NCBI RefSeq assembly: GCF_004217495.1
Contig: NZ_SHLC01000001.1
Span: 992,001 to 1,056,000, forward strand
Source of the DNA: Microterricola gilva
GTDB lineage: Bacteria; Actinomycetota; Actinomycetes; Actinomycetales; Microbacteriaceae
DNA: 64,000 nt
Reading direction: 5' to 3'
Every line of letters starts with the position of its first letter. The first letter of the stretch is position 1. The notes under the pieces are model-generated. The model made no database searches, had not been told where the DNA came from, and saw only the letters and a program-made list of their open reading frames with translations. The position numbers and the translations under genes are program-made. Positions 32,404 to 51,559 of the stretch are shown here, piece by piece.

Positions 32404-33441
<1,038 letters not shown>

Positions 33442-33518: not shown

Positions 33519-36500
33519 TCAGCCGCCGCCGAAACCGCAGCTTGAACGATAGGGTCCGATGTCGGCGAGGTATGTCTTCCACTCGTCGCGAGTCAGGTCG
33601 CGACCGGCCATGCGGCAGGCGGCCTCTGCCTGCTTTTCGGGGCGCAGGTCCCAGACGGCGATCCCGCCAGTCGCATTCACAGCCAGTTCCTGGCCGTCGG
33701 GCCGGATGAACGCCGCCCAGATCTCGGGGCTGGCCACCCGGATGGGCTCACCCAGGCGGATGCCGCTCTCGACGTCGTAAAGCGACACTGTGCCGTTCTG
33801 GGAGAACGCCGCAACGCTGCGCCCGTCGGAGCTGACGCTGATTCTGGCCAGTCCGCCGGGGATGCCGGGGAGCTCGCCGATGAACTCAAAGGTCTCCGCG
33901 TCGTACCGCGAGACCCGATCCGGTTCGAGGCCGACGATCTCCCCCCGTTCCGTCAGGACGGCCGTCACTGGGCCGAGCAGTCCACCCCTGAGCTGCCGCC
34001 CGTTTGTGCCGTCGTAGAGGCTGCTCGTGAACCCGAGCTTCGGGTCATAGCTGGTGAACAACACCCGTGACGCCGTGCTGTTCGTCGACGCGGACTGGAT
34101 TCGCCCTTCGACACGAAACGTCGGCCCGATGCGCCTCCCGGTCGCCGGATCGAGGGTGTACACCGCGCCGTCGTGATCGCCTGCATAGAGCTTGGTGCCG
34201 TCGGCGCTCGGCCAGAAGAATGGGTCGACGCCCGGCGCGAAGTCCATTCCCCAGTCCCGCCCCGTGCGTGCAGACAGCAACCGGAATGTGCTCGACTCCG
34301 CAGTACCGTGTCTGCCGATGAGTACGCCGTCGCCCGTCCATCCGACCTCCGCCCAGCCGTCGGGCACAGTGAACGAGGGGTCGCCGGTGACGGTGTCGAT
34401 GACCGCCATGCTGCTCGGACCCGCCCCGGATGCCGCGGAGTCGGGCGGAACGACCCCGGCCAGCACCTGAGATCCGGTGACAGAGTAGCCGTCACCCACC
34501 CGCCAGCCTTCGGCGATCACTCGCGTGGCCGGCCCGGAGTCATCGAGCATCCACTGCGAGAACGCGGCCGTGCCGCGCCCGACCACGTCGAGCTTTCGGC
34601 CATCCGCTGAGACCGCCAGGGCGCCGACGAATCCGAACTGCAGGTCGAGGTGACGCCCAGTTGGAACGCCGGCCGAGAGGCTGCGCTCCTCGATCCGGCC
34701 CCACAGGTCGCCGCAGTAGAGGCTGTCACGCGCCGACGAGGCCGCGAGCCACGGGCATGGCTTGCCCTGTTCGCCCTCGAACTGCTGCGACCAGGAGACG
34801 CTGCGCGCAGAGAGGTCGAGCGCCGAGATTCGCCGATCTCCGGTCACGAGGGCCAGCGAATCCGAGAGCACCGACATCGACACGTTCGCCGAAGCTGCGG
34901 GCAGCGCGATATGGGCCGTGACCACACCTGTCGGTGGATCAATCAGGAGTGCGTCCCCAGCGACGGTGCCGTAGACGAGCAGTCCGGCCGGGGTGAACCC
35001 GATGGTACCCGCCCGATCGGAGTCGGACACCTCGGCGTGGGTCGGCACGCCGATGACGGTCCTCACCGTGCCGGACACGGCATCCACCAGCGATAACGCA
35101 CCCGTTGAGTCGATGGCCGCGACCGTTGTACCGTCCGGGCTGATCGCGATCGACGACAACACGCCCTCCAGCTCGACAGGGCTGCGCGCCATCGCTCCGC
35201 TGGCAACGTCGGCGAAGCGGATCGAAGCGTGGCCGAGCGCCGGGCCGTCACCCGATGCCGACTGCTCTGCGACGGCGACAAGGCGGCCGTCGGCGCTGAC
35301 CACGGGGCCAAGGTGGACGTTCAGATCGGCGCCGCCTCGCTCGATGTCGAGTGTGCGTACGAGCTCGCCCGTGTCGAGATCGAAGAGCTGGGTTCGGCGT
35401 GTGTCTGTGACGACGGCCACAAGTCGCGTGCCGGGCACGACGCGGCCAACCATCTCGCGAACACCCGGAACGTACGTCACACGAAGCAGGCCGTTGGCGC
35501 CTTCCATTGCGCCCATCAACGCGGAATGCGTTCGGGGGTCATCGGGCCAGCGTCTGTGGGCCTCCACTGCGAGGAGCGCCGACACATCTCGCTCCGTCGT
35601 GCGCAGCGAGAGCGAGGTGCTGGTGAGTGCCTCGATCGTCGCTTCCGTTCGCTGCGCCGCAGTCTCCCGCGCGCTGAGGGCGACGAGACCGCCAGCGGTT
35701 GCGGCCACCGCGAGCATGGCGATGGTCGTGAAGAGTAGAGCGCGCAGCCGTCGATTCTGTCGCCGGTCGTGCGTTGCACGCCGCGCGAGTTCTGCGGCGG
35801 CCGCCTGCTCACGTCCGCGGGACGCGCTGAGGAAGTCTGCCTCAACCGCGGTCAGCTCCGGCGAGCGTGAATCCTGCCACTCGAGTGCGGACTGCAGCCG
35901 GGCACCGCGGAAGAGCCCTTCATCGGGGCGCCCTTCCATCTCCCACATGCTCGCGGCGGTGTCGAGTGCATGCATGACGCGCGCTCCGTCGGCATCCGAT
36001 TCGAGCCAGCCACGCAGCCTTGGCCACGCCGTGGCCAGCGACTCGTGGGCGACGACGAGTGTGTCCTCCTCGGCGCTGACCAGACGGGCCCGCTCCAAGC
36101 CGATGAGCACCTGCTCATGTATGGCGTCCTTGCGGAGCGGCTCGATTCGGATGCGCCGTCGCATCGGTGCGCCATCGGAGCCGATCTCGACGAGGCGGAG
36201 CAGTGTCGCGCGGCAGATCAGCTGTTGCCGAGGGTCGAGTGACTGGTACAGCTGGTCAGCAGACTGGGCGATGGCTCCGGAGATCCCACCGGACTCTTCA
36301 TAGCCCGCCACGGTGAGCGTTGAGCCCTCGCGCCGCAACCAGGTCTCGACGAGGGCGTGGGAAACATGGGGGAGGGCGCCGGGTTCGCCGGCCGCGTCGC
36401 GAAGTACGAGCTCCACCAGGCCCGTCTCGAGACGCAGCCCCGCGAGGTGCGCCGGCTGTTCGATCGCACTCCGCAGGCCAGCGGGGGAGAGCGGCCCGAC

Positions 36501-37721
36501 GAGGTGGACTCCCTGCGCGACGAGCGGGCCGATGCTCGGCTCGGCCGCGCAGGCGTCGAGGTAGTCGGAGCGGACAGCGACGATGACGGTGCGGCCGGCT
36601 TCGACGGCATCCGCGATCAGCCGGCAGCAGGTGCCCACCTCGTCGATCGGAAGGCCGGCGTTGAGGAGCTCCTCGAACTGGTCGATCACAACGACGTCGG
36701 CGCCGCGGCGATCCGAGAGGGCGTCTCGGATGGCCGCGGATGATGCACGCCCAGATCCGACGACGACGACGATCCGTCCGAGCGAACGCAGGGAGGGGAC
36801 GAGCCCGGCGAGCATGAGCGATGACTTGCCGCATCCCGAGGAGCCGGCGAGCGCAAGGAACGACGAGCCCCTCAGCCGCGCGAGGGCGAGCTGGATGTCG
36901 GCGTCACGCCCGAAGAAGGTCGCGGCGTCCTCGGCGCCGAATGCCAGCAGGCCGCGGTACGGGCATTCGCCGTTCGACTGAGGCGGTGCCGCCGGTGCGT
37001 CGAGCGAGGCCTCGTGGCGGAGGATCGCCGATTCGAGGGCGATAAGCTCTGCACCCGGCTCGATGCCGAGCTCGTCGGCCAGCCGGGTGCGTGCACTGCG
37101 CAAGGTCGCGAGCGCATCGGCCTGGCGGCCGCTGCGGTACAGCGCTGTCGCCACGATCGCCCACCGGCGCTCGCGCAACGGAGCAGAACGCACGAGATGT
37201 TCGGCGTCGGCCACCACCGCGCGGTGTTCGCCGAGCTCCAGCCGGGCTTCGAGCAGATCCTCCTCCGCGGTGGCCCGCACCTCGCCAAGTCGTGCCGCCT
37301 CGAGCAACGCGGGAGGCCATTCGGCTAGGTCGACGTACGGCGGCCCCAGCCAGAGTGCGAAAGCGCGCTCGATCGCGTCAATGGCACGTGCAGGGTCACC
37401 GTCGGCTCGGTGTTGTCGAGCTGCGCCGAGAAGTCGTTCGAAACGCACGGCATCGATCGCGTCGCTGTCGACGGTGAGGCGGTAGCCGGAACGGGAGGTG
37501 ACGACCGCCGTGCGACCGAGTACCCGCCTGATGTGCACGATGAGCGCTTGCAGCTGCTTCGGCCATGTCGTGGGTGCATCGTCGCCCCAGACCGCCTCGG
37601 CCAGCTCCCCGGGCGTGACGATGGAGCCCAATCGCAGCGCGAGTGCGGCGAGGAGGGAACGCTCTTTCGGGCCGAGCGGGCCACCGGCAATCGTGAGATC
37701 GCCGAACACGCGAATCTCCAC
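33519..37721 (-). CDS. Membrane-anchored SARP / nSTAND NTPase / beta-propeller regulator
   Basis: 1400 residues from GTG 37721. Order of parts: residues 1-90 an OmpR-type winged helix (EIRVFGDLTIAGG, ERSLLAALALRLG); 95-245 a BTAD helical domain (ALWLGPPYVDLAEWP, LRERRWAIVATALYRSGRQADALATLR), together a SARP DNA-binding region; 255-600 an nSTAND1-like NTPase with CPYRGLLAFGAEDAATFFGR, Walker A AGSSGCGKSSL near 290 and Walker B VVVIDQFEELL; one membrane span near 659-680 (ALLFTTIAMLAVAATAGGLVAL); then to the end WD40/PQQ-like repeats (FDLDTGELVRTLD, SPDGTTVAAIDSTGALSLVD). The DNA-binding end would be cytoplasmic and the propeller outside. It resembles AfsR but replaces its TPR part with a sensor anchored in the membrane. 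Divergent from a repeat lipoprotein. Confidence 0.85.
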   Translation of the reverse strand: MEIRVFGDLTIAGGPLGPKERSLLAALALRLGSIVTPGELAEAVWGDDAPTTWPKQLQALIVHIRRVLGRTAVVTSRSGYRLTVDSDAIDAVRFERLLGAARQHRADGDPARAIDAIERAFALWLGPPYVDLAEWPPALLEAARLGEVRATAEEDLLEARLELGEHRAVVADAEHLVRSAPLRERRWAIVATALYRSGRQADALATLRSARTRLADELGIEPGAELIALESAILRHEASLDAPAAPPQSNGECPYRGLLAFGAEDAATFFGRDADIQLALARLRGSSFLALAGSSGCGKSSLMLAGLVPSLRSLGRIVVVVGSGRASSAAIRDALSDRRGADVVVIDQFEELLNAGLPIDEVGTCCRLIADAVEAGRTVIVAVRSDYLDACAAEPSIGPLVAQGVHLVGPLSPAGLRSAIEQPAHLAGLRLETGLVELVLRDAAGEPGALPHVSHALVETWLRREGSTLTVAGYEESGGISGAIAQSADQLYQSLDPRQQLICRATLLRLVEIGSDGAPMRRRIRIEPLRKDAIHEQVLIGLERARLVSAEEDTLVVAHESLATAWPRLRGWLESDADGARVMHALDTAASMWEMEGRPDEGLFRGARLQSALEWQDSRSPELTAVEADFLSASRGREQAAAAELARRATHDRRQNRRLRALLFTTIAMLAVAATAGGLVALSARETAAQRTEATIEALTSTSLSLRTTERDVSALLAVEAHRRWPDDPRTHSALMGAMEGANGLLRVTYVPGVREMVGRVVPGTRLVAVVTDTRRTQLFDLDTGELVRTLDIERGGADLNVHLGPVVSADGRLVAVAEQSASGDGPALGHASIRFADVASGAMARSPVELEGVLSSIAISPDGTTVAAIDSTGALSLVDAVSGTVRTVIGVPTHAEVSDSDRAGTIGFTPAGLLVYGTVAGDALLIDPPTGVVTAHIALPAASANVSMSVLSDSLALVTGDRRISALDLSARSVSWSQQFEGEQGKPCPWLAASSARDSLYCGDLWGRIEERSLSAGVPTGRHLDLQFGFVGALAVSADGRKLDVVGRGTAAFSQWMLDDSGPATRVIAEGWRVGDGYSVTGSQVLAGVVPPDSAASGAGPSSMAVIDTVTGDPSFTVPDGWAEVGWTGDGVLIGRHGTAESSTFRLLSARTGRDWGMDFAPGVDPFFWPSADGTKLYAGDHDGAVYTLDPATGRRIGPTFRVEGRIQSASTNSTASRVLFTSYDPKLGFTSSLYDGTNGRQLRGGLLGPVTAVLTERGEIVGLEPDRVSRYDAETFEFIGELPGIPGGLARISVSSDGRSVAAFSQNGTVSLYDVESGIRLGEPIRVASPEIWAAFIRPDGQELAVNATGGIAVWDLRPEKQAEAACRMAGRDLTRDEWKTYLADIGPYRSSCGFGGG

Positions 37722-37774
37722 AGCTGCATTGTGCGCGCATCGCTAAGAGGCGTCAACGCCGCACGCCCCGGATC

Positions 37775-37814
37775 CATACCGAACACATACCGGGAGGGCG
37801 GCGGGGTCATACCG
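37775..37814 (+). promoter_or_regulatory. SARP-type heptamer direct repeats
   Basis: CATACCG occurs at 37775-37781, 37786-37792 and 37808-37814, spaced 11 and 22 bp. SARP activators bind heptamer direct repeats at 11-bp phase, with the last repeat about 8 bp before the -10 box. Eight bases after the last copy stands GACAGT (37823-37828), a weak -10, which would start transcription at the lipoprotein ATG (37835). Confidence 0.7.
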
Positions 37815-37834
37815 GCCACACCGACAGTGAAACC

Positions 37835-38179
37835 ATGAACACAACACAGAAAACCCAACGAGTCCTCGCCGCCGCACTCATCGCAGTCTCGGTCGGCGCA
37901 CTGACGGCGTGCTCGCCGCAGATCGCAGAGACCGGCGATCGGCCGGCGGCCGAGGCGCGCGCCCCGGCTGGGGTGGCGCCGTACCGTGATTTCGCGGAGC
38001 GTCTCACTCCGTCGGATCTTGCGCCGGCGCATAAGGCGGAGGTGCCGTACCGTGATTTCGCGGAGCGTCTCACCCCGGCCGATCTCGCACCGGCGCAGGG
38101 TGCAGAGGAGCCGTACCCTGACTACGCGGAGCGGCTCACCCCCGCCGACCTCGTGCCGCAGTCGTCCTGCCGGGACTGA
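37835..38179 (+). CDS. Small lipoprotein with three 22-residue repeats
   Basis: 114 residues. A lipoprotein signal peptide ends in the lipobox LTAC (Cys26). From residue 49 on, three tandem units of 22 residues each begin PY[RP]D[FY]AERLTP[SA]DL; the first two are nearly identical. The last unit ends in a second cysteine (residue 112). The 66-bp units are also similar as DNA, so they arose by recent duplication. I know no family with this repeat. No ribosome binding site precedes the ATG, and a leaderless transcript is likely. The gene is divergent from the SARP/nSTAND regulator, whose candidate binding sites lie in the shared gap. Confidence 0.75.
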   Translation: MNTTQKTQRVLAAALIAVSVGALTACSPQIAETGDRPAAEARAPAGVAPYRDFAERLTPSDLAPAHKAEVPYRDFAERLTPADLAPAQGAEEPYPDYAERLTPADLVPQSSCRD

Positions 38180-49966: not shown

Positions 49967-51559
49967 GTGCCCAAGCCGATCGTGCTCATTGCCGAAGAAT
50001 TGTCGCCAGCCACCGTCGATGCCCTCGGGCCCGACTTCGATGTTCGCTCCGTAGACGGAACCGACCGCCCGGCGCTGCTCGCCGCGCTCGCTGACGCCAA
50101 CGCCATCCTGGTCCGCTCGGCGACGCAGGTCGACGCCGAGGCCATCGCCGCCGCTCCCCAGCTGCAGGTCATCGCCCGCGCCGGTGTCGGCCTGGACAAC
50201 GTCGACATCAAGTCGGCGACCACCGCAGGCGTCATGGTCGTCAACGCGCCGACATCCAACATCATCTCGGCCGCCGAGCTGACTGTCGGCCACATCCTGA
50301 GCCTCGCCCGCCACATCCCGGCCGCGCACAACGCTCTGGCCCAGGGCCAGTGGAAGCGCTCCGCGTACACCGGAACCGAGCTCTACGAGAAGACCGTCGG
50401 CATCATCGGCCTCGGCCGCATCGGCGCGCTCATCACGGCCCGCCTGCAGGCCTTCGGCGTCAGCGTCATCGCCTACGACCCCTACATCACCTCCGCACGG
50501 GCCCAGCAGCTCGGCGTCACCCCTGTATCGCTCGACGAACTCCTCGCGCAGAGCGACTTCATCTCGATCCACATGCCGCGCACGCCGGAGACGGTTGGCA
50601 TGATCAGCACCGAGCAGTTCGCGAAGATGAAGAAGACGGCGTACGTCGTCAACGTCGCCCGCGGCGGCCTGATCGACGAGGATGCCCTCTTCACCGCCCT
50701 CAGCGACGGCGTGATCGCCGGCGCCGGCCTCGACGTCTTCGTCACCGAGCCGCCCGTCGACTCCCCGCTGCTCAGCCTGCCGAACGTCATCGTCACGCCG
50801 CACCTCGGTGCGTCAACCGACGAGGCGCAGGAGAAGGCCGGCGTCTCGGTCGCGAAGTCGGTGCGTCTGGCCCTGGCCGGCGAGCTGGTTCCGGATGCCG
50901 TGAACGTCGCCGGCGGCGTCATCGACCCGTACGTGCGCCCCGGCATCCCGCTCGTCGAGAAGCTCGGCCAGGTGTTCTCGGGTGTCGCGCACACCAGCCC
51001 GCTGACGAGTGTCGACGTCGAGGTCCACGGCGAGCTCGCCGCCTACGACGTGAGCGTGCTGAAGCTCGCCGCCCTCAAGGGCATCTTCACCAATGTGGTG
51101 AGCGAGACGGTGTCCTACGTCAACGCGCCGCTGCTCGCCGAGCAGCGCGGCATCACCGTGCGCCAGCTCACCGATGCCGTCTCCGACGAGTACCGCAACG
51201 TCATCACCCTGCGCGGCGCTCTCGCCGACGGCTCACAGGTCTCGGTGTCCGGCACGCTCACCGGAACGAAGCAGATCGAGAAGATCGTCGAGATCAACGG
51301 CTACGGCGTCGAGATCCCGATCGCGCAGCACCACATCGTCATGATCTACACCGACCGCCCCGGAATCGTCGCCGTCTACGGCGCCGAGTTCGGTGACGCA
51401 GGCATCAACATCGCCGGTATGCAGATCGCCCGCCACGAGGCAGGTGGCCAGGCGCTCAGCGTGCTGACCGTCGACTCTCCGGTGCCGGACGGCCTGCTCG
51501 CCTCGGTCCGCGACAAGATCGCCGCCGACGTGATGGTCGAGATCGACATCACCGAGTAG
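49967..51559 (+). CDS. serA: D-3-phosphoglycerate dehydrogenase
   Basis: 530 residues from GTG 49967. NAD domain: TVGIIGLGRIGALITARLQAFG; catalytic Arg in NVARGGLIDEDAL, Glu in FVTEPPVDSPLL, and His in VIVTPHLGASTDEAQ. After the dehydrogenase come the intervening domain (residues about 320-450) and an ACT domain (IVMIYTDRPGIVAVYGAEFG), where serine inhibits the enzyme. This long form is typical of actinobacteria. It makes 3-phosphohydroxypyruvate, the first step to serine. A TAAAGT -10-like box stands at 49861-49866. AAGGA lies 12 bp before the start. Confidence 0.96.
   Translation: MPKPIVLIAEELSPATVDALGPDFDVRSVDGTDRPALLAALADANAILVRSATQVDAEAIAAAPQLQVIARAGVGLDNVDIKSATTAGVMVVNAPTSNIISAAELTVGHILSLARHIPAAHNALAQGQWKRSAYTGTELYEKTVGIIGLGRIGALITARLQAFGVSVIAYDPYITSARAQQLGVTPVSLDELLAQSDFISIHMPRTPETVGMISTEQFAKMKKTAYVVNVARGGLIDEDALFTALSDGVIAGAGLDVFVTEPPVDSPLLSLPNVIVTPHLGASTDEAQEKAGVSVAKSVRLALAGELVPDAVNVAGGVIDPYVRPGIPLVEKLGQVFSGVAHTSPLTSVDVEVHGELAAYDVSVLKLAALKGIFTNVVSETVSYVNAPLLAEQRGITVRQLTDAVSDEYRNVITLRGALADGSQVSVSGTLTGTKQIEKIVEINGYGVEIPIAQHHIVMIYTDRPGIVAVYGAEFGDAGINIAGMQIARHEAGGQALSVLTVDSPVPDGLLASVRDKIAADVMVEIDITE

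Follow-up and report, generated by a model that had tools for sequence, protein, structure and literature searches.

A phased heptamer array next to a predicted membrane-spanning SARP regulator in Microterricola gilva is a probable operator for a divergent lipoprotein gene

SARPs have mainly been described as activators of antibiotic clusters that act from the cytoplasm, and work by Wietzorrek and Bibb from 1997 is reportedly what is cited for the 11 or 22 bp steps between their repeats. Passages of PMC10936776 describe SARP promoters with repeats in steps of 11 or 22 bp and the last repeat 8 bp from the −10 element; they also describe two AfsR SARP protomers placed side by side on adjacent repeats and carrying sigma region 4. 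ATP binding lifts the inhibition of AfsR by its C-terminal parts, according to the abstract of the published work on that protein. The AfsR/afsS system of Streptomyces coelicolor resembles the locus described here in that a SARP is joined to a STAND NTPase and a repeat sensor, the direct repeats are in an 11-bp register, the last afsS repeat lies 8 bp from a poor −10, CACTGT (passages of PMC10936776), AfsS is a small target protein (63 aa) with three short internal repeats of 12 aa (passages of PMC2267785), and the AfsR site CGTT(T/C)ATCGNN (passages of PMC10972967) is close to the heptamer core TA(C/T)CG found here. It differs in that the AfsR box holds two adjacent repeats where slots 1, 2 and 4 are used here, and in that AfsR has TPR instead of propellers. 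AfsS is cytoplasmic and not a lipoprotein, and we know of no transmembrane helix in AfsR. The operators of ActII-ORF4 and DnrI, small SARPs in antibiotic clusters, also have three heptamers, with spacers of 4–15 nt, i.e. steps of 11 or 22 bp (passages of PMC10972967 and PMC10936776). In the PimR-pimM pair (SARP-LAL, Streptomyces natalensis) a large SARP is likewise combined with three heptamers in the target promoter, and relatives carry the same sequence between both genes; all three heptamers there have 4-nt spacers, however, and the target, a PAS-LuxR protein, regulates antibiotic genes (passages of PMC5930380).

Parts of the architecture recur outside the SARPs. Many of the loci scanned, from actinobacteria and others, encode proteins in which nSTAND1 is followed by a hydrophobic segment and then by a long C-terminal region, although the SARP head is missing in most of them. 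Apaf-1 is laid out as a STAND NTPase with twin WD40 propellers but has, to our knowledge, neither a DNA-binding head nor a membrane helix; its structures 3shf and 3sfz were among the Foldseek matches described below, a likeness of layout and propeller fold only. The membrane one-component regulators CadC and ToxR place an OmpR-type DNA-binding domain inside, a single membrane helix and a sensor outside, and we know of no BTAD, STAND ATPase or propellers in them. A membrane-spanning SARP with diversifying exported partners was not described in any title or abstract that searches of open-licence papers returned, which is not proof of absence, and the passages of the SARP review PMC10972967 contain no occurrence of WD40, transmembrane or membrane.

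The window, the whole 64,000-nucleotide stretch of M. gilva that was analysed, contains a heptamer array in the 113-bp gap between the GTG of a regulator gene (37721, minus strand) and the ATG of a lipoprotein gene (37835, plus strand). The array is probably the operator through which a SARP, the predicted membrane regulator of 1400 aa, drives the divergent lipoprotein gene, giving a leaderless output; we put the probability of this reading at roughly 0.87. The layout of the operator is that of a classical, textbook SARP operator, and what appears unusual is the carrier, a SARP apparently spanning the membrane and paired with diversifying exported partners. The features of the gap and of the target gene are as follows.

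37728–37733, minus strand: −10 element of the regulator's own promoter, CACAAT, read by eye; 6 nt before the GTG, i.e. leaderless, with a similar layout, by eye, in relatives
37751–37756, minus strand: −35 element of the regulator's own promoter, TTGACG, 17 bp from the −10; 44 of 46 gaps have GTCAA (on the plus strand) here
37775–37781, plus strand: heptamer 1, CATACCG, read from the sequence; conserved in the ATG-anchored comparison of gaps
37786–37792, plus strand: heptamer 2, CATACCG, 11 bp after heptamer 1; conserved in the ATG-anchored comparison
37797–37803, plus strand: skipped slot in the same phase, with no consensus (about 0.2–1.0 bits per column)
37808–37814, plus strand: heptamer 3, CATACCG, 22 bp after heptamer 2 and 8 bp before the −10; conserved
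37823–37828, plus strand: −10 element GACAGT (family GANNNT); among 23 distinct gaps the A and the T are each kept in 21
37835–38179, plus strand: target lipoprotein gene, 114 aa, lipobox LTAC (Cys26) by motif, three PYRDFAERLTP-type repeats, predicted leaderless

The positions of the three CATACCG copies and their 11 and 22 bp steps, as given in the preliminary description, were confirmed exactly in the sequence, so that direct-repeat heptamers stand in the register of known SARP promoters. The final copy lies 8 bp from a −10 element that is itself predicted but whose columns are conserved in the family. The suggestion that these are chance repeats, or a repeat with no regulatory role, draws on the fact that CATACCG alone is common: the window holds seven copies against 2.98 expected, and at least seven were seen in four of 100 shuffles. 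With one mismatch allowed, CATACCN5CATACC occurs at three places in the genome against four for the reversed pattern, and therefore the exact pattern alone stands out. A CATACCG pair with at most 30 bp between copies is found in this gap only in the whole 3.67-Mb genome. Among 20,000 dinucleotide shuffles of the gap, any 7-mer recurred twice at 11 bp in 142 and three times in 11-bp phase in one. Chance is also opposed by the same phase being kept in three genera, the window's own (g1), Agromyces (g79) and g29 (G028, with L005 and L122), at 41–58 % protein identity, and we regard it as a negligible alternative.

Relatives were taken from a genome scan (three Agromyces, best segments 57–58 %) and from whole-genome searches (L004, 45 %; L005, 41 %); within genus g1 the regulator was present in one of five genomes, the window's own. 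In a letter-free spacing test on 46 related homologous gaps, 11+22 was the best of 324 spacing pairs, with a mean score of 16.6 of 21 against a median of 9.3 and 13.4 for the next best pair, 11+21. When the 29 of 46 gaps with an ATG in range were anchored on that codon, 26 had TACC at all three places (±1 bp), those below full score being L122, L137_6481 and L182, and none of the 29 had TACC in the skipped slot, in keeping with the earlier statement that this slot is not conserved. The preliminary description had made conservation of the 11-bp phase wherever both genes are present the test of its proposal, and most homologous gaps do keep the phase, the place of the −10 and the place of the ATG. 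By a core-letter criterion (TA[CT]C or AACC) there were 23 gaps with 11+22, 14 with 11+21 and nine without a full ladder (n=46). The logo was built from the 23 of 46 gaps picked by this core, and its core columns are thus conserved partly by construction. No operator was found at L184–L186, L188 and L189 among the 46 regulators. In a subgroup (L009 12227, L114 15848, L118 11803 and L181) an extra copy precedes the first one by 9 bp, and the last step is often 21 rather than 22 bp.

Pattern scans gave four sites in three of 398 family genomes and 17 sites in 13 of 60 Agromyces-genus genomes, while a relaxed pattern with an ATG gave 26 sites in 16 of the latter 60; the reversed control gave 0 in all three scans. 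An order-level scan of 396 genomes returned six sites in five genomes with one match to the reversed control, and the single match outside the family (L128, G630), where the ORF reads like part of a dehydrogenase, was counted as chance, the reversed control having also given one. The 11+22 spacing was not the best in 11 distant SARP-headed loci or at the ordinary SARPs L006 and L007, with the exception of a tie at L032, which reached 19 of 21 with (11,11) as well as with (11,22), a weak result since 19 was also reached at other spacings in L038 and L076. Ahead of its distant SARP-headed gene, L032 has an 11-bp ladder of CTGAAC-type repeats, perhaps an independent operator, a weak observation. 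In the upstream gaps of the ordinary SARPs L006 and L007, TGCTGAT occurs as a perfect pair with an 11-bp step.

The geometry on the lipoprotein side is fixed relative to the array. Between GACAGT and the ATG at 37835 there are 6 nt, which puts the −10 at −12 to −7, and the mRNA is predicted to start on the A of the ATG and to be leaderless; no Shine–Dalgarno sequence was seen by eye ahead of the ATG. This spacing agrees with the earlier proposal that GACAGT, 8 bp after the third copy, would place the transcription start on the lipoprotein ATG. In 17 of 18 distinct operators the ATG lies 27 bp (13) or 28 bp (4) from the start of heptamer 3, and the skipped slot, slot 3, coincides with the −35 position. 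An operator that mainly autoregulates the SARP gene, with the lipoprotein as a bystander, might be proposed from the gap being common to both genes and from the array lying upstream of the regulator's own −35. Against it stand the fixed distances on the lipoprotein side (the −10 after 8 bp, the ATG after 27/28 bp) and the regulator's TTGACG-17-CACAAT promoter, which is separate, consensus-like and opposite in direction; the array is therefore taken as mainly an output switch. Moreover, seven operators lie outside any regulator start gap (six of 18 distinct sites and one in L113) and still precede genes for exported proteins, six of which point towards the 3′ end of a regulator, the other (L098) being in tandem after a first target. 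Autoregulation as the main function is thus improbable. Second targets in L114, L116, L118 and L119 look secreted and have no lipobox, so that anchored and released proteins would fall under one operator type.

The regulator proposed to act on the array has the following parts.

33519–37721, minus strand: gene of the 1400-aa regulator, starting with GTG; made up of SARP, nSTAND1, a single predicted transmembrane helix and two beta-propellers (Pfam, AfsR alignment, hydropathy, AF2, Foldseek)
36972–37721, minus strand: SARP domain, residues 1–250, OmpR-type DNA-binding domain and BTAD; AfsR alignment E 2e-29
35922–36962, minus strand: nSTAND1 NTPase, residues 254–600; PF20703, 316 bits
35682–35738, minus strand: predicted transmembrane helix, about residues 662–680, by hydropathy; RRQNRRLR precedes, with the N-terminus inside
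33522–35669, minus strand: C-terminal part, residues 685–1400, predicted extracytoplasmic, tandem WD40-type propellers and cysteine pairs (AF2, Foldseek, cysteines)

Pfam matches ran from Trans_reg_C through BTAD and nSTAND1 to weak propeller matches, and placed the protein among the SARPs with 32 bits for PF00486 (cut-off 26.2) and 126 bits for PF03704 (cut-off 22.1). The AfsR equivalog model NCBIfam NF053617 was not matched at its cut-off (142 bits against 1430; best stretch residues 17–302), and no PADLOC model of a known anti-phage defence system matched at E 0.01. By hydropathy, each of the 29 homologues (of 46) that reach 1300 aa showed one pronounced hydrophobic segment around residue 660, in most cases behind a run of basic residues. 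It is followed by about 740 residues with recurring cysteine pairs, which suggest an extracytoplasmic location of this part. For residues 685–1400, an AlphaFold2 model built from five sequences (pLDDT 78.6, pTM 0.68) was all-beta except for a few helices at the ends, and its best Foldseek matches were tandem WD40 propellers. Query TM-scores were 0.31–0.39 among the 50 matches listed, so a propeller fold is claimed from the model but a propeller arrangement is not. Identity to the three closest relatives was 71–72 % over the first 620 residues and 45–46 % over the outer part.

In the alignment with AfsR, regulator residue q corresponds to AfsR q+29, and the AfsR contacts W74, P79, R94 and K95 are represented by W45, P50, R65 and R66. 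AfsR T88 and R92, which contact bases according to passages of PMC10936776, correspond to A59 and H63 in the recognition helix. The copies within one operator usually change together, giving CATACC, GATACC, AGTACC and GATATC types, and these followed residue 59 of the adjacent SARP. All 12 copies were AGTA(C/T)C beside T59 regulators (n=4); 17 of 18 were GATACC or GAAACC, with one AATACC, beside I59 regulators (n=6); and all three were GATACC beside the single H59 regulator. Six of the nine N59 regulators had an operator, with GATATC in 17 of 18 copies, and three had none (L184–L186). The A59 regulators (n=24) had CATACC in all three copies in 16 cases, the other eight being mixed or partial. 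Of 110 positions compared, residue 59 was the most informative about the operator dinucleotide (normalised mutual information 0.69; runner-up 0.42), calculated on 39 of the 45 tree rows, six without an operator or a majority dinucleotide being left out and L189 lying outside the tree. In a tree built without the helix, the T59/AGTACC and I59/GATACC–GAAACC combinations each appeared in at least two separate places. This amounts to one or two independent contrasts on well-supported branches and two to five on all branches, too few for a sign test or a statement of significance. The residue-to-base link is not direct, since T88 of AfsR contacts heptamer position 3 and the bases that vary here are mostly 1, 2 and 5. 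On few independent events, then, the covariation argues that the adjacent regulator reads the site.

The site could in principle be used by some other SARP or OmpR-type protein that the genome encodes, e.g. one resembling PhoP, and AfsR and PhoP do use common direct-repeat sites in Streptomyces (passages of PMC10972967). The array and the regulator occur together, however: the array was found in 16 of 24 Agromyces-genus genomes with the regulator and in none of 36 without it (Fisher 4.9e-9, a guide only as the genomes are related), and the operator type follows the recognition helix of the SARP next to it. Use of the site by a different protein is accordingly very improbable. The earlier proposal that the regulator activates the neighbouring gene through the heptamers gains support at the level of sequence from the conserved phase, the AfsR alignment, the SARP promoter distances and the recognition-helix covariation.

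By this preferred reading, in which the array is the operator of the lipoprotein gene, the regulator would sit in the membrane with its SARP and nSTAND1 parts inside and its paired propellers outside. A signal arriving on the propellers from outside, or ATP loading of nSTAND1, would free the SARP domains to occupy slots 1, 2 and 4 of the 11-bp ladder and to guide RNA polymerase to a weak −10 without a usable −35, yielding the leaderless lipoprotein mRNA. A pair of protomers may occupy slots 1 and 2 and a promoter-proximal protomer slot 4, and slot 3 could perhaps take up a neighbour bound non-specifically. By analogy with AfsR, nSTAND1 would gate the regulator and the outer propellers would be the sensor. 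The lipoprotein, exported to the compartment of the propellers, would probably serve the receptor as a partner or as a feedback ligand, any contact between lipoprotein and propellers being speculative. If true, the SARP family would come to include one-step transmembrane signalling, through a member that senses outside the cell and has an exported partner of its own, and what large SARPs sense would become testable, with a candidate ligand encoded next door.

The target of the window has a signal peptide and a lipobox by motif, and neither a further copy of its gene nor, by array scans and a search for lipoprotein copies, a second target was found in the M. gilva genome. A divergent gene for a predicted exported protein stood beside 37 of 46 regulators, with a lipobox-like motif in nearly all (not in L188, and only loosely in L113_12776). 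From the 39 target rows, L179 and L177 (truncated copies of the L116 and L114 targets) and the chance match L128 were dropped before counting. The nine regulators without a divergent exported target were L122, where the target is a 57-aa peptide without a signal peptide; L134 (= L113 7149), where a perfect three-copy operator beside the regulator has no start codon after it and a serA-like gene comes next; L146; L157 and L182, with no intact target; and L184, L185, L186 and L189. At L146 (5766) a T59/AGTACC operator lies at leaderless distance before a protein that reads as a VOC/glyoxalase-type enzyme and not as a lipoprotein. Most targets were of about 60–150 aa, many with short repeats, those of L144, L158 and L188 were larger exported proteins, and targets in the GATATC group had an untranslated leader.

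These targets may instead be independent effectors (surface protection, adhesion or peptide precursors) that the receptor switches on and that are not its partners, a reading we hold at somewhat below even odds. It is favoured by the wide differences among target proteins, which comprise several repeat types (YRDxAERR, RYVxEL, DPRGxH, DLSPL and LRQLMEEDR) and one VOC-like protein. On the other side, exported targets recur at the same place, and particular repeats accompany particular operators: YRDxAERR or RYVxEL targets stood behind CATACC, DLAESR behind two AGTACC sites and DPRGxH in all five regulators with GATACC in at least two copies, though neither observation proves contact. The operator and repeat types are also not strictly matched, as L113 (17584) has a CATACC operator, away from the regulator start, before a secreted protein with LRQQLEAD repeats and DPRGHH. 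A more far-reaching proposal is that membrane-spanning SARP receptors form closed loops in which the Apaf-1-like STAND/twin-propeller sensor reads the repeat lipoprotein it switches on, or a released counterpart of it, with DNA specificity, operator and repeat types co-diversifying into insulated parallel channels that are arrayed in the single ilvC–serA slot and resemble self-recognition or kin sensing. It is weakened by the same unmatched L113 case, and we consider it rather unlikely. The arrays would in any case provide many natural regulator–operator pairs apparently shifting specificity together, a data set on how the helix reads the heptamer.

Regulators were found between ilvC and serA, with one or both genes nearby in 23 of 29 sources (28 loci and the window); there was no ilvC or serA match at L122, L144, L146, L158, L183 and L188, some of which are perhaps short loci, and several loci overlap each other. 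The interval is a fixed chromosomal slot with variable content, as at L008, L109, L118, L119 and L120 among others; its coordinates in the window are 32416–33441 and 49967–51082, the latter being serA, 12 kb further on. At E 1e-30, Agromyces-genus genomes had as many as six regulator matches (G415), and several of these were broken or partial, a pattern that suggests fast birth and decay of regulators in one slot. Several second or third regulators of Agromyces arrays were broken or shortened, in L109, L112, L114 and L115 and in rows with an internal TGA. Further genes of the slot in the window encode an alpha-L-fucosidase and, judged by eye, a ROK-like regulator and proteins of sugar transport.
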